A stretch of DNA of 64,000 nt from Shimia isoporae (GTDB lineage Bacteria; Pseudomonadota; Alphaproteobacteria; Rhodobacterales; Rhodobacteraceae), in NCBI RefSeq assembly GCF_004346865.1, contig NZ_SMGR01000001.1:2108001-2172000 (forward strand), written 5' to 3'. A model generated the notes under the pieces. That model searched no databases, was not told the DNA's origin, and was given only the letters and a program-made list of their open reading frames with translations. The translations under genes were made by a program, and so were the position numbers. The number at the start of each line of letters is the position of its first letter. Position 1 is the stretch's first letter. Positions 25,255-58,288 of this stretch are shown one piece after another.

Positions 25255-26421
25255 TTAGGCTGCTGGCATCCGCTTCTCGACAACTTCAGCCCACCAGCTG
25301 CAGCCCGCGGGAATCGCTTCGTCGTTAAAGTTGTACTCGGGGTGGTGCACCATTGCGCCGTCCTCGCCATTGCCAACAAGAATGTAAGCGCCCGGACGCT
25401 CTTCGAGCATGAAGGCAAAATCCTCACCGCCCATTACCAGTGGAGCCTCGTCACACTGACCGGAAATCGACTTGGCCACCTCGGCCGCGAATTCGGTCTG
25501 TGCATCCGTGTTGACCATCACCGGATAACCGCGGTGGTATTTCACATCAACCGTGCCGCCAAAGGTCGTGGCAATGCCGTCGCAAATGCTGTTGATACGG
25601 TCTTCGGCAAGATCGCGCATCTCTTTGGACATGGTGCGCACCGTGCCTTTGATGTGCACGCGCTGAGGGATCACGTTGAACGCTTTGGAACTCGTTTCAA
25701 AGCTGGTCACAGAAACGACCACCTGATCGATAGGGTCTGCGTTCCGGCTTGCGATCGTCTGCAGAGCAAGAACGGCCTGCGCCGCCATGACGGTGGTGTC
25801 CACTGTGTCATGCGGTTTTGCCGCGTGACCGCCTCGGCCTTCGAAATGGATGTCGAACTGGTCGGTTGCGGCAAAGAACGCGCCGGACCGGATCGCAAAG
25901 CTGCCGACGGGACGCCCGGGCCAGTTGTGCATGCCATAGACTTCCTGAATGCCCCAGCGTTCCATCATGCCGTCGTCGCACATTTCCTTGCCGCCACCGC
26001 CGCCTTCTTCGGCTGGCTGGAAGATCACCACGACAGTTCCGTCAAAATTACGGGTCTCGCTCAGATACTTCGCCGCGCCCAACAGCATTGCCGTGTGGCC
26101 ATCGTGGCCACAGGCGTGCATCGCACCGTCGGTCTTGGAAGCATATTCCAACCCCGTCTGCTCATGGATCGGCAACGCGTCCATATCTGCGCGCAGGCCG
26201 ATAACCTTGCCCGAACCGGTCGATTTTCCCTTGATCACGCCCACAACGCCCGTGCGACCGATGCCTGTCACGATCTCGTCACAGCCGAATTCTTTCAGCT
26301 TCTCGGCAACCAATGCAGAGGTTCTGTGAGTTTCAAACAGGATTTCAGGGTTTTCGTGAATGTCCCGTCGCCAGGTGGTGATTTCATCCTGCAACTCGGC
26401 AAATCGGTTCTTCGTCGGCAT
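25255..26421 (-). CDS. M20D-family amidohydrolase (hippurate hydrolase / aminoacylase-like), copy 1
   Basis: A 388-residue zinc hydrolase of the M20D group, which removes N-acyl groups from amino acids. Metal-site motifs are MHACGHDGHTAMLLGAAKYL (Cys and His), AEEGG (Glu pair), YGMHNWPGRPVG (His) and HHPEYNFNDEAIP (His). The dimerisation insert lies between about residues 185 and 295. Start ATG 26421 has AGAGGAA upstream. It is last of three tandem, co-directional paralogues (24 bp and 14 bp apart). The natural substrate is unknown; hippurate is only the family name. Confidence 0.92.
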   Translation of the reverse strand: MPTKNRFAELQDEITTWRRDIHENPEILFETHRTSALVAEKLKEFGCDEIVTGIGRTGVVGVIKGKSTGSGKVIGLRADMDALPIHEQTGLEYASKTDGAMHACGHDGHTAMLLGAAKYLSETRNFDGTVVVIFQPAEEGGGGGKEMCDDGMMERWGIQEVYGMHNWPGRPVGSFAIRSGAFFAATDQFDIHFEGRGGHAAKPHDTVDTTVMAAQAVLALQTIASRNADPIDQVVVSVTSFETSSKAFNVIPQRVHIKGTVRTMSKEMRDLAEDRINSICDGIATTFGGTVDVKYHRGYPVMVNTDAQTEFAAEVAKSISGQCDEAPLVMGGEDFAFMLEERPGAYILVGNGEDGAMVHHPEYNFNDEAIPAGCSWWAEVVEKRMPAA

Positions 26422-26445: not shown

Positions 26446-27609
26446 TCAGGCCGCAGGCATGCGGCGTTCGATCACTTCTGACAGGAAGCTGCTCCCATAG
26501 GGAATAGCGTCATCGTTAAAATTGTATTCAGGGTGGTGCAGCGCGGCACTGTCGCCGTTCCCGACCATGATGAAGGCTCCCGGGCGGGCTTGCAACATAT
26601 AGGAAAAGTCTTCTCCACCCATGACCAACGGCGCTTCATTGCAGCTTCCGGCAACGGCTGTGGCAACTTCTTCCGCAAAAATCGCCTGATCCTCGGCATT
26701 GATCGTGGCCGGAGTGATGCGATTGTAGTCTACGGTGGCTGTGCCGCCGAACGTCGCGGCTATGCCACTCGCAACGTCTTTCATTCGCGCTTCGACCATA
26801 TCCTGGGTTTCGGGTGTGAAAGTACGAACAGTTCCCTTCAGCGTGGCCGTATGGGGAATAACATTAAAAACGTCCGACCCCGTCTGGAAGCTGGTTACGG
26901 AAACGACCGCCCGATCCACAGGGTCAACGTTGCGGCTTACAATGGATTGCAGCGCCGAGTGAATGTTGGTTCCGATCACCGTTGGGTCAACGGTTTGTTG
27001 AGGCATCGCCGCATGGCCGCCCCTGCCCTCGATTTCGATGGTGAAAAAATCCACCGCCGCCAGCAAGGGTCCACGACGAATGGAAAATTCGCCGACCGGC
27101 AGGCCGGGATTATTGTGCATCCCATAGACTTCCTTGATGTCCCAGCGGTCCATCATTCCGTCTTCGACCATCGCCAGGGCGCCATTTCCACCTTCTTCTG
27201 CCGGCTGAAAAATAAGCGCCACGGACCCATCAAAATTTCGGGTCTCGCTCAGATACTTGGCAGCCCCTAGAAGCATTGCGGTGTGTCCATCGTGACCACA
27301 GGCGTGCATAGCCCCGTCCGTTTGGCTCGCATATTCAAGACCGGTCTGTTCCTGCATCGGCAGGGCGTCCATATCTGCCCGCAAACCGATGACATTCCCT
27401 TTGGTGTCAGTCTTCCCTTTGATGATACCCACGACACCTGTGCGTCCGATGCCTGTGACGACCTCATCACACCCAAACTCTCTAAGCTTTTCCGCCACCA
27501 GAGCGCTGGTTCGATGCGTTTCATACAGAACCTCCGGATGGGCGTGAATGTCGCGCCGCCATTCGGTGATTTCTCCATGCAATTCCGCAAAACGGTTTTT
27601 GACCGGCAT
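26446..27609 (-). CDS. M20D-family amidohydrolase, copy 2
   Basis: A 387-residue paralogue of its two neighbours, with the same metal motifs (MHACGHDGHTAML, AEEGG, YGMHNNPGLPVG, HHPEYNFND) and the GGEDF segment near residue 325. After the Glu pair it reads NGALAMVEDGMM where copies 1 and 3 have GGGKEMCDDG or GGGREMCRDG, so this loop differs. Start ATG 27609 follows AGGGAGC; the in-frame region upstream to 27675 runs into copy 3. Confidence 0.92.
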   Translation of the reverse strand: MPVKNRFAELHGEITEWRRDIHAHPEVLYETHRTSALVAEKLREFGCDEVVTGIGRTGVVGIIKGKTDTKGNVIGLRADMDALPMQEQTGLEYASQTDGAMHACGHDGHTAMLLGAAKYLSETRNFDGSVALIFQPAEEGGNGALAMVEDGMMDRWDIKEVYGMHNNPGLPVGEFSIRRGPLLAAVDFFTIEIEGRGGHAAMPQQTVDPTVIGTNIHSALQSIVSRNVDPVDRAVVSVTSFQTGSDVFNVIPHTATLKGTVRTFTPETQDMVEARMKDVASGIAATFGGTATVDYNRITPATINAEDQAIFAEEVATAVAGSCNEAPLVMGGEDFSYMLQARPGAFIMVGNGDSAALHHPEYNFNDDAIPYGSSFLSEVIERRMPAA

Positions 27610-27623
27610 TTTGTGCTCCCTGA

Positions 27624-28799
27624 TCAATTTACGGCTGGCATACGGCGTTCGACCAATTCGGCGAACCAGCTGCACCCGACCGGAATGGCTTCGTCGTCAA
27701 ACTGATACTGCGGGTGGTGACACATCGCCGTGTCCCCGTTGCCCAAGAAAATGTAGGCCCCCGGCCGCTCTTCAAGCATGAAGGCGAAATCCTCAGCCGG
27801 CAGGATTGGATCCGTGTTGTCGTCCACTGCCGCATCTCCCACAACGGCCCGTGCGGCCTCCACGGCATATTCCGTTTCAGCTTCGTGGTTGATTGTGACA
27901 GGGTACCCGTCCTCCCAGACCACCTCCGCCGTCGCGCCATAGGCCAGCGCAGTGTGTTCGGCAATGGCACGGATACGCGCTTCGGCCACGGCACGATTGT
28001 CCGTGTCCAAGGTTCGCACGGTTCCTTTTAACTTTACTGTGTGCGCGATCACGTTGGAGGCCACACTATCGGTCTCAAACGTTCCGACGGTCACGACAAC
28101 TCGGTGCACCGGATTCACTGTGCGGGCCACAATCGATTGCAAAGAAACAACGATCTGGCTCGCGACCAGCGTCGTGTCTATCGCCTCATGCGGCGCAGCC
28201 GCGTGCCCACCTTTGCCGGTCACCGTGATTTCGAATTCGTCCGCCGATGCCAACAAGGCGCCGGGGCGGATGGCAAATTCTCCTACGGGTATGCCTGGTG
28301 CATTGTGGAGACCATAGACTTCCTGAATACCCCAACGATCCATCATCCCGTCGCGGCACATTTCGCGCCCGCCACCGCCACCTTCTTCCGCAGGTTGGAA
28401 AATCAGAACGACCGTGCCATCAAAGTTGCGGGTCTCGGAGAGGTACTTGGCGGCGCCGAGCAGAATGGATGTGTGCCCGTCATGCCCGCAGGCGTGCATT
28501 TTTCCGTCTACGACGGACGCATACTCAAGACCTGTCGCTTCATGAATCGGCAAGGCGTCCATGTCGGCCCGCAAACCAATCACGCGGCCTTTGGTATCGG
28601 TCTTGCCTTTGATGACCGCGACCACTCCGGTCTGGCCAATGCCGGGCGTGATCTCATCCACGCCAATTTCCTTTAACCGCTCCTGCACGAATGCCGCCGT
28701 TTCATGCACGTCAAACATCAGTTCCGGATGTTTGTGCAGATGGTGACGCCATCCGGTGATCTCGGAATGCATCTCGGCAAGGCGGTTTCGAATTGGCAT
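27624..28799 (-). CDS. M20D-family amidohydrolase, copy 3 (first in operon)
   Basis: A 391-residue paralogue and the promoter-proximal gene of the tandem set. Metal motifs are kept (MHACGHDGHTSIL, AEEGG, YGLHNAPGIPVG, HHPQYQFDDEAIP). Near residue 325 the strongly conserved GGEDF of the other two copies is replaced by PAEDF, and an insertion of aspartate/asparagine residues precedes it. That region lines the catalytic cleft in the family, so substrate preference probably differs. Start ATG 28799 follows GGGGAG. A TetR-type palindrome lies 35-50 bp upstream. Confidence 0.92.
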   Translation of the reverse strand: MPIRNRLAEMHSEITGWRHHLHKHPELMFDVHETAAFVQERLKEIGVDEITPGIGQTGVVAVIKGKTDTKGRVIGLRADMDALPIHEATGLEYASVVDGKMHACGHDGHTSILLGAAKYLSETRNFDGTVVLIFQPAEEGGGGGREMCRDGMMDRWGIQEVYGLHNAPGIPVGEFAIRPGALLASADEFEITVTGKGGHAAAPHEAIDTTLVASQIVVSLQSIVARTVNPVHRVVVTVGTFETDSVASNVIAHTVKLKGTVRTLDTDNRAVAEARIRAIAEHTALAYGATAEVVWEDGYPVTINHEAETEYAVEAARAVVGDAAVDDNTDPILPAEDFAFMLEERPGAYIFLGNGDTAMCHHPQYQFDDEAIPVGCSWFAELVERRMPAVN

Positions 28800-28833
28800 G
28801 ACAAATCTCCCCATAAGTCGGCGCCCGCTCAGA

Positions 28834-28849
28834 CTGAACGATCATTCAG
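28834..28849. promoter_or_regulatory. TetR-type palindromic operator upstream of amidohydrolase operon
   Basis: The 16-mer CTGAACGATCATTCAG is complementary at 7 of its 8 symmetric pairs (TGAA and TTCA outer arms). It is 35 bp upstream of the first amidohydrolase start. A 14-of-16 identical copy lies at 33456-33471 in the transporter promoter. The form resembles operators of TetR-family repressors; no such gene is in the window. Confidence 0.6.
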
Positions 28850-28930
28850 TTACGTGCAAGGGGGGATTGTTCACAAATTAACGGATGAGCGGACGATGCG
28901 GAGAATTCCGGCAAGCCACAGCTGTGAGGA

Positions 28931-30277
28931 TCAAATAATCGGCCCCAACTTCATCTTGGAGCCATCTGAAAACCGCGACAGCCTGAAGCGATGCAAATCG
29001 TGCCCGACATCTTTTCCGGTGACCAAGTCCGCCATCACACGGCCAAAGGCTGGGCCAATGCCAAATCCATGTCCGCACATACCTGTGCAAATACTCAATC
29101 CAGGCACACTTTCAGCGCGGTCCACGACCGGTACTATATCCGGCATCGTGTCGATCATGCCTGACCAGGCTTGTTTCATCTTTAGATCGCCCAATTGGGG
29201 AAACAGCGCCGAAAATCTGGCCAATGCCTTGGTCAGAGGCGGCATATGGGTCTTGGGGTTTAGCACGCGCATCCGTTCAAAAGGGCTTTCGTCACCCATG
29301 TTCCATTGCCGCTTTGTGCTCCATGCATCCGGATATCCCCACGGCGCGGCTGGCCTGTAGAAAGTGCCGGCCCAGTCTTCCTTCAACTGCGGCACAAATT
29401 TCGGCAGTGCGCGAAAGGCGTCCGGGCCGACAAACAACCGGTGCCAGCCGCCGGGGGCAATTGTAAATCCGCCGTCGGCGCGCCGCCGCCAGGCCAGTCC
29501 TGTCACTGCCGTAGCCGGAACATCCAAAGCGGCCGCGGGTTCGGTCGCCATCACCAGAGCCTGCACAGACAGTTGCGGGATTTTTACACCGTGTCGTCGC
29601 AAGAACAGAGACGACCATGCGCCACCGGCGACCACAACTTCCGCCGCCTTGATACGTCCGCGCTCCGTGGTGACACCCGCCACGCGCCCGGCCTCAAGGT
29701 CCAGTCCGCGCACGGCGCAATTCTCGACGATCACCGCCCCTGCCCGAACAGCCGCACGCGCCAACGCCGGCACCGCGATCCAGGGTTCTGCTTTCAAATC
29801 TGACGGAGTGTACAGCGCCCCCGCAAACCTCTGCGTCGCCCCCGGCAAGGTTTCCGCCGCTTGCGTCGCTGACAGCATCCGGCTGTCGACTCCGGAGGAT
29901 TTGACCTGCGCGAGCCAGTTTTCGTACTCAGCGAGTTCGCGTTCGGTTTCCGCCAGATAGCTTATGCCGACGGTTTCAAGACCAAGATCCTCTCCGACTT
30001 CGGCCGCCAGTTCTTTCCAAAGCCGGTTGGCTTCCATCATGATCGGTAGTTCGGCCACGTCGCGGCCTTGCTGACGGATCCAGCCCCAATTCCGTGAACT
30101 CTGCTCAGCGGCAACCCGTCCCTTCTCAAGGACAACCGGTCGCAAACCTTTTTTTGCAAGAAAAAAGGCGGTCATCACACCGATGATCCCGCCTCCAACA
30201 ATTGCCACATCCGCTTCCTTCGGGAGCGCTCCACCGTGTTCTACCGGCTGCTGCAACCCCAAAGGAAAGGCGCTCAT
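28931..30277 (-). CDS. FAD-dependent oxidoreductase of the D-amino acid oxidase (DAO) family
   Basis: A 448-residue flavoprotein. The FAD-binding Rossmann motif VGGGIIG (about residues 27-33) is followed by RNWGWIRQQGRD, and a C-terminal CGHGFGIGPAFG segment completes the DAO fold. Such enzymes oxidise D-amino acids, glycine derivatives or N-methylated amino acids to keto acids or aldehydes, releasing ammonia or amines. The start overlaps the upstream ArgE-like stop by four bases (ATGA), with GGAG before it. Its position in the transporter operon suggests it oxidises a product of imported compounds. Confidence 0.88.
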   Translation of the reverse strand: MSAFPLGLQQPVEHGGALPKEADVAIVGGGIIGVMTAFFLAKKGLRPVVLEKGRVAAEQSSRNWGWIRQQGRDVAELPIMMEANRLWKELAAEVGEDLGLETVGISYLAETERELAEYENWLAQVKSSGVDSRMLSATQAAETLPGATQRFAGALYTPSDLKAEPWIAVPALARAAVRAGAVIVENCAVRGLDLEAGRVAGVTTERGRIKAAEVVVAGGAWSSLFLRRHGVKIPQLSVQALVMATEPAAALDVPATAVTGLAWRRRADGGFTIAPGGWHRLFVGPDAFRALPKFVPQLKEDWAGTFYRPAAPWGYPDAWSTKRQWNMGDESPFERMRVLNPKTHMPPLTKALARFSALFPQLGDLKMKQAWSGMIDTMPDIVPVVDRAESVPGLSICTGMCGHGFGIGPAFGRVMADLVTGKDVGHDLHRFRLSRFSDGSKMKLGPII

Positions 30278-31440
30278 CCCGCCAGCTCCGCCAGCAAGTC
30301 TCGCATGAATTTTTCGCCCGACTGAAACTGGGCAACAGACAGAAACTCGTCCGGTTGGTGTGCCTGAGCAATGTCTCCGGGTCCACAGATCACAGTAGAA
30401 TACCCACCGTCCTGAAAATGCCCACCTTCGGTACCGTAGCTAACGACTCGCGAAGCGTTGTCCCCCGTCAGCCGGCGCACCAGCGCTTCGGCTTCTCCTG
30501 TCTCTTCCGGCAACAAGCCCGGGACATAGAATTTTTCGCCAAGCTCGATGAAGCTCTCTGGCACAACGGCCTGCATCTCGGCCTCGACTTCGGCTACCTT
30601 TGCCTTGAACCGCGCGATCCATTCGTCGCGGCTTTCATCCGGCACAATCCGGAAATCGAGCCCGAAACGGCAATCCAATGCCGTAATATTATGTGCGGTG
30701 CCGCCTTCAATCATGCCAACGTGAACGGTTGTCCATGGGGGCTCGAATGTTGCTGCAATCTCGCCGGGCGCCTTGGCGCGGTTCTCGGCGTTCATCTCGT
30801 TTGCCCATTCAATGAGCTTCGCGCCATACATGATAGCATTCACGCCGGTATGCATCAGAGAACTGTGCACCTCGAACCCGCGGACATGAACATCAAACCC
30901 CTGCCCGCCTTTGTGGCCTGTCACCGCGCCCATCATCGAAGGTTCGCCAACTATGGTCGCGCGGCCTTTTGGAAGGACTTTGTTCATGCTTTCAATCAAA
31001 GGTGCGGCGCCGGTACAGCCGATCTCTTCGTCATAGCTCAGCGCAATCTGTAGCGGCCGCTTCAGACCGGCGTAGCGGCCTTCAACCATTGCCCAGATTG
31101 CCAACGCGTCGAAGCCCTTCATATCGCAGGTCCCGCGCCCGAAGAGCTTGCCGTCTTTTTCGACAACTTCAAAAGGGTCGGTCGACCAAGGCTGTCCTTC
31201 GACGGGCACAACATCTGTGTGTCCAGACAACACAACGGCACCTTCGACGTTGGGCCCGACATGGGCAAACAGGCCGGCCTTCGCCGGGTCCGTTTCATGC
31301 GGATGGCGATAGCTCTCGATGCCGTGACTTGTGAGATAGCTCTCAACCCAGTCAATCAGAGGCAGATTGGTGTCGCTCGACACAGTCGGAAACGACACCA
31401 GTTTTTCCAGGATCGCGCGTGGGCTGAGGCGCTCAGTCAT
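30274..31440 (-). CDS. ArgE-like acetylornithine deacetylase (M20A family)
   Basis: A 388-residue zinc aminoacylase with M20 marks: LSGHTDVVPVEGQPW (His and Asp ligands), GRGTCDMKGF, SYDEEIGCTG (catalytic Glu pair) and YGTEGGHFQDGG near the C-terminus. The closest named enzyme is acetylornithine deacetylase, which releases acetate from N-acetylornithine. In this setting (ABC transporter upstream, DAO-family gene downstream and three M20D genes beyond) a catabolic deacylase is as likely as an arginine-biosynthesis enzyme. It starts four bases after the ATPase gene. Confidence 0.85.
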   Translation of the reverse strand: MTERLSPRAILEKLVSFPTVSSDTNLPLIDWVESYLTSHGIESYRHPHETDPAKAGLFAHVGPNVEGAVVLSGHTDVVPVEGQPWSTDPFEVVEKDGKLFGRGTCDMKGFDALAIWAMVEGRYAGLKRPLQIALSYDEEIGCTGAAPLIESMNKVLPKGRATIVGEPSMMGAVTGHKGGQGFDVHVRGFEVHSSLMHTGVNAIMYGAKLIEWANEMNAENRAKAPGEIAATFEPPWTTVHVGMIEGGTAHNITALDCRFGLDFRIVPDESRDEWIARFKAKVAEVEAEMQAVVPESFIELGEKFYVPGLLPEETGEAEALVRRLTGDNASRVVSYGTEGGHFQDGGYSTVICGPGDIAQAHQPDEFLSVAQFQSGEKFMRDLLAELAG

Positions 31441-31444
31441 CGGG

Positions 31445-33265
31445 TCAGTACCCGCTGTCTGTGGTCAGCACAAAGTGCTCTGGCCCGACTTCGCGGTACT
31501 CGGACGGCGCCGCTTCGTAGTCGACCGGATGGATCGGGCTCGGGATCGGTTTGAAATTCAGGTCCTTTTCGGACTTTCGCTGACGCGGATCGGCGATCGG
31601 AACAGCTTTCATCAAAGCTTGTGTATAAGGGTGTTGCGGGTTCTCGAACACCGCGCGGCGCGGACCGATTTCAACAATGCGACCGAGATACATCACGCCA
31701 ACATAATGGCTAACACGCTCCACAACGGCCATGTCATGGCTGATGAACACATACGAAATGCCCATCTCTGCCTGCAGTTCCATCATCAGGTTGAGAACCT
31801 GCGCCTGAACCGACACATCAAGCGCGGAAACGGCCTCGTCTGACACGATCAGTTTCGGATTCAACGCCAATGCGCGCGCAATGGCGATACGCTGACGCTG
31901 ACCACCGGACAACTCGTGCGGATAGCGGCGCATGAAGCTGCGCGGAAGTTCAACGCGGTCAAACAGCATCTCGACCCGCTTTTGCAACTCTTCACCCGCG
32001 TGGGTTCCATAATTGCGCATCGGCTCCGACACCTGGTCCATCAACTGCATTTGCGGGTTCAACGACGCAAAGGGATCCTGGAAGATCATCTGCATCTGTT
32101 GCCGGGCCTTGTGCAGTTCTTTCGGGTTCAGGGCCATGATGTCCAGACCATCAAACTCGACATGGCCGGAAGTAGGTTCGACAAGTCGCAGCAAAGACCG
32201 ACCGGCAGTCGACTTACCACAACCGGATTCGCCAACGAGGCTCAAAGTTTGACCTTTGTTGACTGTAAAAGAGATGTCCTCGACTGCGTGCACGTTCGCA
32301 ACCGTGCGCCGCATCAGGCCACCTTTTACCGGGAAGCGCGTGACGAGGTTGGAAACCGTCAGGATCGGCTCGTTTGTTCCGGGGATCGGGTCAGTATTGT
32401 GTGTAGTGTCACCAAACAGCTTCATCGGGCTTGGAACATCCGTGCCCGTCATCTCGCCAAGCTTTGGCACGGCTGCCAACAAAGCCTTGGTATAGTCGTG
32501 CTGCGGATTCTCGAAGATCTCCTCGACGGTACCTTCTTCGACTTTGTTGCCGCGGAACATAACGACGACCCGATCCGCCATCTGCGCCACAACCGCCATG
32601 TCGTGGGTGATAAACATGACCGCGGTGCCCGTTTCGCGTTTCAAGCGGTCCATAAGGGCCAAAATTTCAGCTTGAATGGTCACATCCAAGGCAGTTGTTG
32701 GTTCATCCGCAATTAGAAGACGCGGTTCACAGGCCATTGCCATCGCGATCACGACCCTTTGGCGCATACCGCCGGAGAGCTCGTGAGGGTATTGTTTTAA
32801 ACGGCGTTCCGGTTCCGGAATACGCACCTGACGCAGCAATTCCAGCGCCCGCGCCTCAGCTTCGGACTTTGACAGCTTTTTGTGCAGCCGCAGGCCTTCA
32901 GTTAGTTGTCGGCCAACCGTGAACACCGGATTGAGCGCTGTCATCGGTTCCTGAAAGATCATTCCGATCTCGTTACCGCGAATCGTGCGCATCAAATCCT
33001 GATTGGTTTCGCGCAGGTCTTCCTCGCCGCCTTCCTTGCGATCAAACAGCAATCGACCGCCGGCAATATCGCCTCCGCCGAACTCCACCAGACGCATCAG
33101 AGACAGGCTGGAAACGGATTTTCCGGATCCGGATTCTCCAACGATACAAACGGTTTCGCCCGGATTGACCTTAAAGGACACATCCTCGACGCCCACCACA
33201 GGACCGTCTTTTGTTTGGAACTCAACACGAAGGTTTTCGATCGAGGCGATGGCGTTGTCCAGCAT
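31445..33265 (-). CDS. Peptide ABC transporter, fused double ATP-binding protein
   Basis: A 606-residue fusion of two ABC ATPases equivalent to DppD and DppF (GsiA-like). The first Walker A is GESGSGKS at about residues 43-50 with signature LSGGMRQRV near 163; the second is GESGCGKS near 345 with LSGGQRQRI near 453. Each half ends with the oligopeptide/dipeptide C-terminal region ([16 protein letters not shown]). It powers import by the permeases at 35397 and 36397. Start ATG 33265 is preferred because the first ABC domain begins there. It is divergent from the binding-protein gene. Confidence 0.95.
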
Positions 33266-33579
33266 CCCCACAACTCCCAGTTTTTTGTTTTTTTGTCTTT
33301 GGCGGGACGCTACTGGCAAGAATTGCAAAGGTCAAACACCCCCCAAAACGCCAATTTGTGTACCGCTTTTCGCACCCTAACCCCAAGTTAGTTCCGAAAC
33401 GAGCGCTTGCATTTTCCGGTTTGCTGGTCTGTGATGCGGGCAGTCGAGAGGGGACTTGAACAATCATTCAGCGTTGCACACGAACGATTCGGTGCGCGGT
33501 CTCTTCCTGACAACAAACAAATGGGCGGAAACAATCCGCCTGAATTGCGCGGGCAACCGCGTTCAACATGGAGTGAGAC
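33266..33579. promoter_or_regulatory. Divergent promoter region of the transporter
   Basis: A 314-bp region between the ATPase operon (minus) and the binding protein (plus). It holds the 16-bp palindrome at 33456 and a hairpin in the binding-protein leader (GGCGGA at 33524 paired with TCCGCC at 33535). Both promoters must be here; I cannot assign -35/-10 boxes firmly. Confidence 0.6.
33456..33471. promoter_or_regulatory. TetR-type palindromic operator in transporter promoter
   Basis: TTGAACAATCATTCAG matches the 28834 palindrome at 14 of 16 positions, including the full ATCATTCAG arm. It lies 108 bp upstream of the binding-protein start and about 190 bp upstream of the ATPase start. Confidence 0.6.
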
Positions 33580-35280
33580 ATGAAAGTTAAAACTTTGATG
33601 CTTGGCGCTGCAGCAGCATTCGCACTGGCCCCCGCGGCCATGGCGGAGCGCGGCTCGGACGGCCACGTAAACATCATCTACTGGCAGGCGCCTTCGATCC
33701 TGAACCCGTATCTGTCGGGTGGTACCAAGGACATCGAATCGGCATCGCTGACCATTGAGCCGCTGGCCCGCTACGACGAAACCGGCGCTCTGGTTCCGTT
33801 CCTGGCCCAAGAGATCCCGACTGTCGGCAACGGCGGCGTTTCCGAGGACCTGACCAGCATCACATGGAAGCTGCAGGAAGGCCTCGTTTGGTCTGACGGT
33901 TCCGCTGTAACCTCTGCTGACGTTGTTTTCACCGCGGCATACTGCATGCACCCCGAAGGCGGCTGCGCACAGGCATCGTTCTTTGATGGCGTAGACAGCG
34001 TTGATGCGATTGACGACCTTACCGTCAAAGTAACCTTCTCCGCACCGAAGCCGAACCCGTATGGTCCGTTCGTCGGCGGTCAGTCCCCGATCATCCAGAA
34101 AGCTCAGTTCGAAAACTGCATGGGTGCAAAAGCGCCTGAGTGTACTGCTGAGAACTTCGGCCCGATCGGCACAGGCCCGTTCGTTGTAACCGACTTCCGC
34201 ACCAACGACGTGATCCAGTTCGAAGCAAACCCGAACTACCGTGATCCGGCGAAACCGGCATTCGCAACCGTAACCTTCAAAGGTGGCGGCGACGCAACCG
34301 GCGCGGGCCGCGCGGTTCTGGAAACCGGCGAATTCGACTACGCATGGAACCTCCAGCTGGCACCCGACGTGATCGCCAAGATGGAAGAAGGCGGTAAAGG
34401 CAAAGCCATCGCAGGCTTCGGTCCGCTGGTTGAGCGTCTGGAAATGAACCTGACCAACCCGTCGTCCGATCTTGCGGAAGGCGAGCGTTCCACCGTTGCG
34501 CACCCGCACCCGTTCCTGTCCGACATGAACGTGCGTAAAGCGCTGTCCATGGCGATCGACCGCGAACTGCTGGTTGAGATCGGCTACGGTAAAGCAGGTA
34601 AAGTGACCTGTGACGTGGTTCCGGTTCCGGCCAACTACGCTGCAAACAACGACTACTGCATGACGCAGGACATCGCTGGCGCAAACGCCCTGCTGGACGA
34701 AGCCGGCTGGGTTAAAGGCGGCGACGGCATCCGCGCGAAAGACGGCGTCAAGCTGTCCATCCTGTACCAGACCTCCACGAACGCCGTTCGTCAGGACTTC
34801 CAAGCCCTGATCAAACAGTGGTGGAGCGAAATCGGTGTTGAAACCGAGCTGCGCAACCTGTCCGCATCCGTATTCTTCGGCGGTGACCCGGGTTCCCCCG
34901 ACACCTTCCAGAAGTTCTATGCTGACGTTGAGATGTATGCGAACACCTTCAACGGCACCGACCCTCAGCAGTATCTGGCGGCCTATCGCTGCGGCAACGA
35001 GCCGAAGCCTGACAGCCAGTGGCAGGGTGAGAACATCAACCGCTTCTGCGATCCTGCATATGACGCTCTGATCGACGAGCTGGCCCAGACCGGCGACATC
35101 GAGAAGCGCGGCGAGATCGCGAAGAAGATGAACGACATGCTGACCAAAGACAGCTACACCATTGTGCCGCTGGTGCACCGTGGTCGCGTGTCCGCACACG
35201 CCAACAGCCTGGGTGGTGTCAAACTGAACGTTTGGGACTCCGAGCTGTGGAACGTTGCAGACTGGTATCGCATGAAGTAA
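33580..35280 (+). CDS. Peptide/dipeptide-type ABC transporter substrate-binding protein
   Basis: A 566-residue periplasmic binding protein of family 5 (SBP_bac_5, DppA/OppA type). The signal peptide ends AAMAE at about residue 22. Typical parts are LVPFLAQEIP, WKLQEGLVWSDGSAVTSADV, and DMNVRKALSMAIDRELL. Codons are strongly biased to one C-ending choice (for example GGC, AAC), unlike its neighbours, which suggests very high expression. A UUCG-capped hairpin after the stop probably protects this part of the message. Ligand not deducible. Confidence 0.95.
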   Translation: MKVKTLMLGAAAAFALAPAAMAERGSDGHVNIIYWQAPSILNPYLSGGTKDIESASLTIEPLARYDETGALVPFLAQEIPTVGNGGVSEDLTSITWKLQEGLVWSDGSAVTSADVVFTAAYCMHPEGGCAQASFFDGVDSVDAIDDLTVKVTFSAPKPNPYGPFVGGQSPIIQKAQFENCMGAKAPECTAENFGPIGTGPFVVTDFRTNDVIQFEANPNYRDPAKPAFATVTFKGGGDATGAGRAVLETGEFDYAWNLQLAPDVIAKMEEGGKGKAIAGFGPLVERLEMNLTNPSSDLAEGERSTVAHPHPFLSDMNVRKALSMAIDRELLVEIGYGKAGKVTCDVVPVPANYAANNDYCMTQDIAGANALLDEAGWVKGGDGIRAKDGVKLSILYQTSTNAVRQDFQALIKQWWSEIGVETELRNLSASVFFGGDPGSPDTFQKFYADVEMYANTFNGTDPQQYLAAYRCGNEPKPDSQWQGENINRFCDPAYDALIDELAQTGDIEKRGEIAKKMNDMLTKDSYTIVPLVHRGRVSAHANSLGGVKLNVWDSELWNVADWYRMK

Positions 35281-35396: not shown

Positions 35397-36404
35397 ATGC
35401 TGACCTTCACAATACGGCGGTTGATCCTCGCGATCCCGACGCTCCTCTTTATCTCACTCGTCATCTTCCTGTTGCTAGAACTGGCACCGGGCGACCCGAT
35501 GGCTCAGGTCCCGCTGACCGTGCCACCGGAAGTCAAAGAGAAGATGCGCCAGGCCCTTGGTCTCGGCGAACCGATGCATGTCCGATACTGGAAATGGCTG
35601 GTCCAGTTCTTCTGGGTAGAGCCGCAGGTGATGTTTGATCACTACTTCGGCACCACTTTTTCCGAAGACAAACTCCGCATCATCTCTTGGCAGCATCGCG
35701 GCCCCGTCATGGACGTGGTCGTAGAACGCCTGCCGCAAACCCTGTGGGTTGTTGGCATGTCCTACATCGTAGGCATCCTGATCGCCCTGCCGATCGGCAT
35801 CTATTCTGCCTACAAACAGTATTCGATCTTCGATCAGGCCGGTACATTCATCACCATGATCGGCTACTCCATCCCGCCGTTCTTCACCGGCCCGCTGGTG
35901 ATCGTGATCTTCTCGGTGAATCTGGGGTGGTTCCCGTTCATCTATGACACGACCCACGAGGTGACCGATTGGGACAGCTTTGTCTATCAGCTGCGTCAGA
36001 TGATCATGCCGGTAATGGTACTGGCACTGCAGACCACCGCCCAGATCAGCCGCTACATGCGCGCTTCGATGCTGGACAACCTCAATCAGGACTATGTGCG
36101 CACAGCGCGTGCCAAAGGCCTGAGCGAGAAAGTGGTCGTGCTGGTTCACGTACTGCGCAACTCGATGATCCCGGTTGTGACCGTGATTGCTCTGGGTCTT
36201 CCGGCGATCTTTGGCGGCGCAATCATCACCGAACAAGTGTTCTCGGTGAACGGCATCGGCGGTCAGCTGATCGGCGCCATTCAGGCCAACGACCTGCCAA
36301 CTGTGCAGACACTGACCTTTATGTTCGCCTTCCTGATCGTGTTCTTCAACCTTATCGCAGACGTGCTCTACGGTATTCTTGATCCGAGGATCCGCTATGA
36401 CTGA
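35397..36404 (+). CDS. Dipeptide-type ABC transporter permease (DppB-like)
   Basis: A 335-residue inner-membrane permease with about six helices. The first helix (LILAIPTLLFISLVIFLLLE) and the ELAPGDP motif are typical of DppB/OppB. The EAA loop that contacts the ATPase is DYVRTARAKGLSEKVV near residue 238. An insertion around residues 60-100 (PQVMFDHYFGTTFSEDKLR) is longer than in many DppB proteins. Its last eight bases overlap the next permease gene. Confidence 0.94.
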   Translation: MLTFTIRRLILAIPTLLFISLVIFLLLELAPGDPMAQVPLTVPPEVKEKMRQALGLGEPMHVRYWKWLVQFFWVEPQVMFDHYFGTTFSEDKLRIISWQHRGPVMDVVVERLPQTLWVVGMSYIVGILIALPIGIYSAYKQYSIFDQAGTFITMIGYSIPPFFTGPLVIVIFSVNLGWFPFIYDTTHEVTDWDSFVYQLRQMIMPVMVLALQTTAQISRYMRASMLDNLNQDYVRTARAKGLSEKVVVLVHVLRNSMIPVVTVIALGLPAIFGGAIITEQVFSVNGIGGQLIGAIQANDLPTVQTLTFMFAFLIVFFNLIADVLYGILDPRIRYD

Positions 36405-37308
36405 TATGTCCAACACGGAACCGACCACCCCACCGCACAGCCAATGGTACGACGTGTGGCACCAGTTCAAGGCGCACAAAGGCGCTCTGCTGGGGGGAAT
36501 TGTCTTCATTGTAATCGTGTTCGGGGTCTTCGTTGGCCCGTGGCTCTGGCCGTATGACGCGACATACATCGACATTCGCGCCCGCAACCAAGGCCCAAGC
36601 TGGGCACACCCGTTCGGCACCGACCAACTTGGGCGGGACACGCTAGCGCGTATGATGGCGGGCGGACAGACCTCGATTGCAGTGGGCCTGACAGCCATGC
36701 TGCTGGCACTTGGTCTGGGCAGCTTTGTGGGCATCATGGCCGGCTTCTTCAAGAAGCTTGACGGCCCGTTGATGCGCCTGACTGACCTGTTCCTTGCTCT
36801 GCCAATTCTGCCGCTTCTGCTGGTGATGATGATGCTCTTCCGCGAACCGCTGTCGGCGGCCGTTGGACCAGAGCGAGGTATCTTCATCCTGATCGTGGTC
36901 GCCATCGGCATCACCTCCTGGATGCCCACGGCACGGATCGTGCGCGGCGATGTGTTGGCCATCAAGGAGCGAGAGTTTGTTCTTGCAGCCCGCTCCATCG
37001 GGACGTCCAACCGCCACATGATCACACGCCACATCCTGCCCAACGTTCTGAGCCCTATCATGGTCTCGGCAACGCTTGGGATCGCGAACGCGATCATCAC
37101 AGAGTCGGCCCTGTCGTTCCTCGGCCTTGGCTTCCCACCGGACTTCCCGACTTGGGGCCGCCTGCTGAACGACGCGGTTCAATACCTTCAGGATTATCCG
37201 GAACGCGTGTTCTGGCCCGGTCTCGCAATCTCGCTGACCGTGCTGAGTGTGAACTATCTTGGCGACGGTCTCCGCGACGCACTTGATCCGCGCATCCGCG
37301 GTCGCTGA
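36397..37308 (+). CDS. Dipeptide-type ABC transporter permease (DppC-like)
   Basis: A 303-residue permease with an N-terminal OppC-type segment (about residues 15-40) and five to six helices. The family motif HPFGTDQLGRDTLARMMAGG is near residue 68, and the EAA loop REFVLAARSIGTSNRHMI near 190. Start ATG 36397 is preceded by GAGGAT and overlaps the DppB-like stop. A terminator follows, so this closes the plus-strand transport operon. Confidence 0.94.
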   Translation: MTDMSNTEPTTPPHSQWYDVWHQFKAHKGALLGGIVFIVIVFGVFVGPWLWPYDATYIDIRARNQGPSWAHPFGTDQLGRDTLARMMAGGQTSIAVGLTAMLLALGLGSFVGIMAGFFKKLDGPLMRLTDLFLALPILPLLLVMMMLFREPLSAAVGPERGIFILIVVAIGITSWMPTARIVRGDVLAIKEREFVLAARSIGTSNRHMITRHILPNVLSPIMVSATLGIANAIITESALSFLGLGFPPDFPTWGRLLNDAVQYLQDYPERVFWPGLAISLTVLSVNYLGDGLRDALDPRIRGR

Positions 37309-58138: not shown

Positions 58139-58288
58139 GTCATGTTCTCCAAAAAAGCTGTCCGATCCAAAAAAGGACAAAATCGTTAACGCGATTACAT
58201 GCGGAATGTCGGAGGGCATTCTGAACAGAGGTTCATCCGACCATGAGGAACGGCGCGGTTTTTGCGCCACTTGTTCGGAGGAAACGCC

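Follow-up and report, generated by a model that had tools for sequence, protein, structure and literature searches.

A candidate TetR-family regulator for two operators at a peptide hydrolase and transporter locus of Shimia isoporae

The 64,000-nucleotide stretch of Shimia isoporae DNA analysed here (the window; NZ_SMGR01000001.1, positions 2,108,001 to 2,172,000) carries two closely similar 16-base-pair (bp) sites, operator 1 upstream of three tandem M20D hydrolase genes and operator 2 in the gap between the divergent genes of a peptide ATP-binding cassette (ABC) transporter. It is very probable that both are operators of one TetR-family repressor, encoded on another contig by an orphan gene (C2:387584-388138 of this genome, G000). 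Three findings made at the level of sequence carry the assignment: the half-sites recur in the promoter of that TetR gene, they mark a set of about 16 promoters, and the gene and the operators occur together in one clade of the genus. A preliminary description of the window had placed the two sites as above and proposed a single TetR-type regulator for uptake and hydrolysis, encoded outside the window; the comparison supports this, with both window loci in the predicted set, and the picture of two loci proves too narrow only in that the set takes in the further promoters. A marine genus thereby gains a specific candidate regulator of peptide use that is open to direct testing.

Two operators and a candidate regulator

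Operator 1 (CTGAACGATCATTCAG, 28834-28849) and operator 2 (TTGAACAATCATTCAG, 33456-33471), neither assigned to a strand, are identical at 14 of 16 positions, as had been described. The view that both are palindromes stands for operator 1, which is near-perfect with 7 of 8 base pairs complementary, and less well for operator 2, which is imperfect with 5 of 8 (hand counts). The distance from the end of operator 1 to the first M20D gene, on the minus strand, is 19 or 34 bp, according to which candidate ATG (28814 or 28799) is taken, and operator 2 falls within the 314 bp that separate the ABC ATPase gene from the divergent binding-protein gene. Both are supported by whole-genome scans and by matrix matches within the genus. 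The sequence TGAACRATCATTCA occurs exactly at five places in the whole genome, operators 1 and 2 included, and with up to 2 mismatches gives 17+18 matches against 1+6 for the reversed control, a count over both strands in which many places appear twice. For TGAAYRRTCRTTCA there are 5+6 matches in the same genome against 0+0 for the control, and the pattern TGAAC-RATCATTCA of the preliminary description, with its hyphen read as one base, gives no match. Operators 1 and 2 are real sites, beyond chance.

The S. isoporae genome holds 22 TetR genes. The one at C2:387584-388138, on the plus strand, encodes a protein of 185 residues with a TetR_N helix-turn-helix (PF00440, 49.9 bits, cut-off 24), TetR_C_24 scoring just below its cut-off (25.7 against 26.4 bits), and has TGAACAGGTGTTCA 29 bp before its ATG. 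A motif in the regulator's own promoter, the mark by which the preliminary description expected the regulator to be recognised, is present at all 14 orthologues in the genus as a palindrome starting 42-58 bp before the ATG; it reads TGAAC-N4-GTTCA in 11 of them, with TGAAT in G010 and TGAGC in one half in G011 and G033. In the TetR promoters a conserved CTTG-N-TA block precedes this operator. The gene adjoins tamB and tamA in S. isoporae and in 12 Shimia-group loci of the search for relatives described below.

The pattern TGAAY-N4-RTTCA, chosen after the TetR's own site had shown the half-sites to be the shared part, occurs at 26 places in S. isoporae against 6 for its reversed control, in keeping with the expectation that the motif would not be scattered at random. 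The surroundings of all 26 were inspected. The relative G014 has 19 such places, of which 17 (all but C5:154458 and C18:80672) were inspected; each stands at the start of a gene whose S. isoporae counterpart carries one of the 26. At the 16 of these loci other than the TetR gene, the S. isoporae proteins align at 79-97% identity and the operator lies between 15 bp inside the start of the match and 157 bp before it. With a short-chain dehydrogenase/reductase (SDR) gene excluded, the 16 targets common to the two genomes are assigned to a predicted regulon, and many of them again carry sites in other relatives.

Occurrence in Shimia and competing explanations

Among the 25 Shimia genomes compared, the region upstream of M20D has a matrix match of at least 13.5 bits in 14 and nothing above 8 bits in the other 11. 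This set of 14 was recorded before the search for TetR orthologues, and an orthologue was found in exactly those genomes, with none in the other 11 at E <= 1e-15; nor was such a TetR seen in the tamB neighbourhood of these 11, of which G002 is uninformative, its contig ending after about 600 bp. Motif places are more numerous in genomes with the TetR than in those without it (mean 18.3 against 11.1; Mann-Whitney P = 0.0001), whereas a control pattern shows no difference (3.8 against 4.2, P = 0.62).

Conservation upstream of the orthologous genes, which had been named as a check on the shared-regulator proposal, is complete at M20D in the genomes with the TetR and partial at the transporter, where the promoter has a match of at least 17.4 bits in 10 of the 14, the best among the 11 others being 10.2 bits (G013). 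The site also occupies two positions: in G000, G014 and G017 it lies downstream of a conserved core promoter, and in G006, G009, G010, G016, G018, G035 and G036 it comes immediately before the CTTGCA block. The transporter half of the case is therefore weaker than the hydrolase half. In G018, G003 and G011 the M20D genes adjoin a gene that by eye resembles a DctB-type sensor kinase, and the operator is retained.

Several points weigh against assigning the two operators to the TetR at C2:387584. In a tree of the binding-protein gene, the 14 genomes make up one side of a fully supported branch, and because they form one clade the co-occurrence of TetR and operator counts only once; given that it amounts to one evolutionary event, the operator at the TetR gene itself carries more weight. 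That site, however, has a centre, AGGT, unlike that of most targets and scores 13.8 bits against 20.9-25.3 bits for the ten sites of the matrix, which was itself built from this genome's sites; the outer bases of the pattern matches, moreover, were set beforehand. The pattern had also fixed the central purine at some sites, so neither the purine bias of the regulon sites (29 of 32 against 10 of 20) nor the greater identity of outer over central bases, which is open to the same effect, was used as evidence. Genomes without the TetR still hold 8-17 motif places and the ranges touch, G012 (17) and G001 (15) lacking the TetR and G011 and G035 (15 each) possessing it, although four of the 17 places in G012 are one repeated TGAACCCGGGTTCA. 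The transporter site is missing in G003, G007, G011 and G033, all of which have the TetR, and a consensus scan at operator 1 found no sigma-70 promoter. Finally, two further TetR genes of the same genome have similar half-sites, AAGAACGTACGTTCAG standing upstream of L034 (C6:92399) and TTGAACATCTGTACAA upstream of L029 (C1:2104513), which makes cross-talk possible.

This last point raises the possibility that the sites belong to one of these other TetRs, or to a third, L027 (C3:146310). This scenario is unlikely for two reasons: first, although similar half-sites accompany TetRs of the same types elsewhere in the genus (TGAACATGTGTTCA at that of L034 type in G032; TGAACAGTCGTTCA in G005 and TGAACACTCGTTCA in G032 at those of L029 type), G032, with both types, and G005, with the L029 type, have no operator at M20D or at the transporter. 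Second, L027, which was attractive since its first codons read ATGAACGATCAATCC, was rejected: the gene occurs in 24 of the 25 genomes and its site is not conserved in the orthologues. As an observation in its own right, a TetR of L034 type and an SDR gene both carry TGAACATGTGTTCA in genomes without the candidate TetR (loci compared: L306, at G000:C1:1265124, L320, L321 and L322); a second TetR regulon with near-identical half-sites is suggested. The TetR of L029 type (L029, L106, L326) is divergent from a gene that by eye encodes a flavin monooxygenase; it has TTGAAC-N4-GTTCAA in G005 and G032 and a decayed right half in G000, where the gene lies 3.4 kb outside the window.

A regulator of another family (e.g. 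MarR, GntR or Lrp/AsnC) could bind the sites, with the TetR gene merely one of its targets. The survey of regulators was confined to the TetR family, and a gene that by eye is AsnC/Lrp-like immediately precedes the EamA target in G000 (L050) and G010 (L184). Nevertheless, this explanation is quite improbable, given that the TetR gene bears the motif in its own promoter in all 14 Shimia genomes that have it and that distant relatives of this TetR have a related palindrome at 6 of 9 loci. That the two palindromes are a chance likeness without function is scarcely credible: a search of the window alone, with up to 3 mismatches, gave a modest excess (6 matches against 1.86 expected, equalled in 3 of 100 shuffles), but chance is contradicted by the genome-wide excess, the conservation in relatives and the link to the regulator.

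Window genes, predicted targets and mode of repression

The genes around the two window operators are as follows. On the minus strand, M20D hydrolase 1 (27624-28814, or starting at 28799) matches Peptidase_M20 and M20_dimer, both over cut-off, and hydrolases 2 (26446-27609, start placed by eye at MPVKNRF) and 3 (25255-26421) match hydrolase 1 in tblastn at 58 and 63%. The same strand carries a flavin adenine dinucleotide (FAD)-dependent oxidoreductase (28931-30277; DAO model), an M20 peptidase of ArgE/DapE type by eye (30274-31440; Peptidase_M20, M20_dimer) and the fused peptide ABC transporter ATPase (31445-33265; two ABC_tran stretches and oligo_HPY, start by eye at MLDNAIAS). On the plus strand are the peptide-type binding protein (33580-35280; SBP_bac_5) and two ABC permeases (35397-36404, BPD_transp_1 and its N-terminal model; 36379-37308, BPD_transp_1 and OppC_N).

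At the M20D promoter the probable -35 element (TTGCAC, 28854-28859, minus strand), with a CTTG conserved in the 14-genome alignment, is followed at 17 bp by the probable -10 element (CAGTCT, 28831-28836, minus strand), which is conserved and matches TATAAT poorly; the clearest conserved blocks among the 14 aligned promoters are CTTG and the operator with CAGTCT. The M20D operator would accordingly occupy the spacer between the two elements, of 17 bp in S. isoporae. The probable -35 element of the binding-protein promoter (TTGCAT, 33407-33412, plus strand) belongs to a CTTGCA-type block found in the 14 TetR genomes and altered somewhat in the 11 others, in which the core promoter is recognisable; its probable -10 element is TGTGAT (33430-33435, plus strand), with operator 2 lying 20 bp downstream. 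A consensus scan near operator 2 placed a promoter-like site elsewhere, at 33507-33535.

It is proposed that a dimer of the TetR binds TGAAY-N4-RTTCA and would block RNA polymerase, at M20D between the -35 and -10 elements, at its own gene by covering the transcription start, and at several other genes by sitting across the start codon. The placement at the M20D and TetR promoters would fit simple repression, and at several targets the operator spans the start codon, ATGAACGATCATTCA then encoding MNDHS. A small molecule that signals the supply of peptides or amino acids (an amino acid, a dipeptide or an acyl-CoA) may release the TetR, a signal suggested because the target list, read with general knowledge, points there. 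Release would switch on together peptide uptake, hydrolysis of peptides and N-acyl amino acids, part of amino acid breakdown, and export.

The predicted targets, named by matches to protein-family models, are the M20D triad and the peptide transporter of the window, a second peptide-type binding protein, a fourth M20D gene beside mazG, peptidase T, an M24 peptidase (PepQ-like, under cut-offs), a gamma-glutamyltransferase (just under cut-off), two Bcr/CflA exporters, two EamA transporters, AzlC, an acyl-CoA dehydrogenase, a reductive dehalogenase fusion of 1070 residues, ctaA and the TetR gene itself. Dipeptides or amino acids can leave the cell through Bcr and EamA proteins, and branched-chain amino acids through AzlC; the list suggests roles for the exporters and for the dehalogenase fusion. 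The latter (L048:6102-9314; G000:C1, about 1093600-1096800) joins the dehalogenase to a reductase that carries a 2Fe-2S domain, scores over cut-off with TIGR02486 and has an exact operator 71 bp upstream, as it likewise has in G014, G007 and G017. At ctaA (L307, L314), which is unexpected in a peptide regulon, the motif lies about 60 bp before the start in G000 and G014.

Ten of the 26 places in S. isoporae were dropped, and several of them sit inside genes. The site in the SDR promoter (C1:1265124) was excluded on two grounds: G031 and G012, without the TetR, retain TGAACATGTGTTCA there, and the same sequence precedes the TetR of L034 type in G032. Nine others have no counterpart in G014 (C1:42323, 111970, 486503, 658414, 1836993, 2166222, 2310984, C2:3112 and C4:172601), though one of them, C1:658414, coincides with an EamA gene start and could yet belong to the regulon. 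A site before an amino-acid-type binding protein (C3:101412) was left out, one half-site base being altered. A third copy of the motif in the window, CTGAACAGAGGTTCAT at 58221-58236 (12.2 bits), lies between two plus-strand genes and has no counterpart among the G014 places. In G031, a genome without the TetR, TTGAATAGTCATTCAA (C18:926645; L323:3146) lies 22 bp from an open reading frame that by eye encodes a peptide-type binding protein.

The clades with and without the TetR, which agree in these genes and largely in the core of the transporter promoter, provide a before/after pair and make the origin of a dispersed regulon directly testable. The gap between the FAD oxidoreductase gene and M20D is 23-30 bp in 10 of the 11 operator-less genomes and 86 bp in G015, and 116 or 131 bp in S. 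isoporae. It is tentatively suggested that one Shimia clade gained in one step both the TetR, whose relatives elsewhere adjoin one transporter cassette, and some 16 scattered operators for it, so that what had been a local regulator came to govern peptide and amino acid traffic as a master switch. On this view the M20D triad, which in the sister genomes follows the transporter operon and lacks a separate promoter, would have acquired one that encloses the operator, and the presence of the dehalogenase fusion in the regulon would link dehalogenation with marine protein breakdown, halogenated tyrosines being one example. A debrominase of Roseobacter is reported to act on 2,6-dibromophenol (PMC13101508).

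Known systems and relatives of the regulator

The kind of system is known. As described in PMC5343134, PsrA, FadP and RutR are TetR-family regulators with dispersed regulons in Proteobacteria and resemble the Shimia TetR in that one regulator would serve many scattered promoters, with catabolic targets and lineage-specific gain of targets; they differ in that they govern fatty acid or pyrimidine breakdown, and the Shimia protein scores low, far below cut-off, with the PsrA and RutR models. LiuQ, a regulator of branched-chain amino acid utilisation, resembles it in family and in its amino acid breakdown targets, a likeness by description, and is given in the same text as unique to Betaproteobacteria among those studied (PMC5343134). 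BetI of Alphaproteobacteria shares the family, the short palindromic half-sites and the autoregulation of a catabolic set relevant to its clade, but the BetI1 box, ATTGACG-CGTCAAT, as given in PMC12442346, differs from the Shimia operator, and an identification as BetI was rejected (TIGR03384, 30.1 against a cut-off of 201.3). Four operator 14-mers had no match in the open-access literature searched. We found no description of this regulon among the titles of the matches listed for Shimia/TetR/regulon and TetR/peptide-transport topics in that literature, which leaves most subscription journals outside, or in the available part of PMC6761289, and this particular regulon is apparently undescribed.

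Relatives of the TetR were sought with short peptide patterns, which pick up close relatives only. Those more than 63% identical belong, among the named ones, to Shimia or Rhodobacteraceae. The closest outside Shimia are from Paracoccus alkanivorans (60%), followed by Microvirga, Rhizobium, Devosia and two Rhizobiaceae assemblies (44-48%), nine non-Shimia loci in all. The Paracoccus, Microvirga and Rhizobium proteins are 44-60% identical to the Shimia TetR over most of their length and share TGAAT/TGAA half-sites, but the palindrome in the TetR promoter of the six loci that have one is an 18-bp form, TGAATGAA(C/G)GTTCATTCA, unlike that of Shimia. At five loci (L242, L244, L246, L248 and L249) the divergent neighbours of the TetR gene are a calcineurin-like phosphoesterase gene and sugar-type ABC genes (family models for L242), whereas the Shimia TetR is an orphan by tamB. 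This comparison suggests, without proving it, that Shimia received the gene from another source and that its product then acquired new targets. Upstream of the TetR at L245, L246 and L249, TGAATGAACGTTCATTCA holds two 14-mers of Shimia type that overlap at an offset of 4 bp, an arrangement that may reflect a pair of dimers or of registers.

Outside Shimia, 8 of 293 genomes of the family contain TGAACGATCATTCA, in surroundings with no common theme (L179 before an amidase gene, L175 inside a gene), and these occurrences are taken as near chance. In G025, of another family, a short contig (L119:1147-1840) carries a TetR gene and three motif copies, of which two are spaced by 25 bp, and the TetR protein has the Y-N-H stretch of the recognition region in common with the Shimia TetR.

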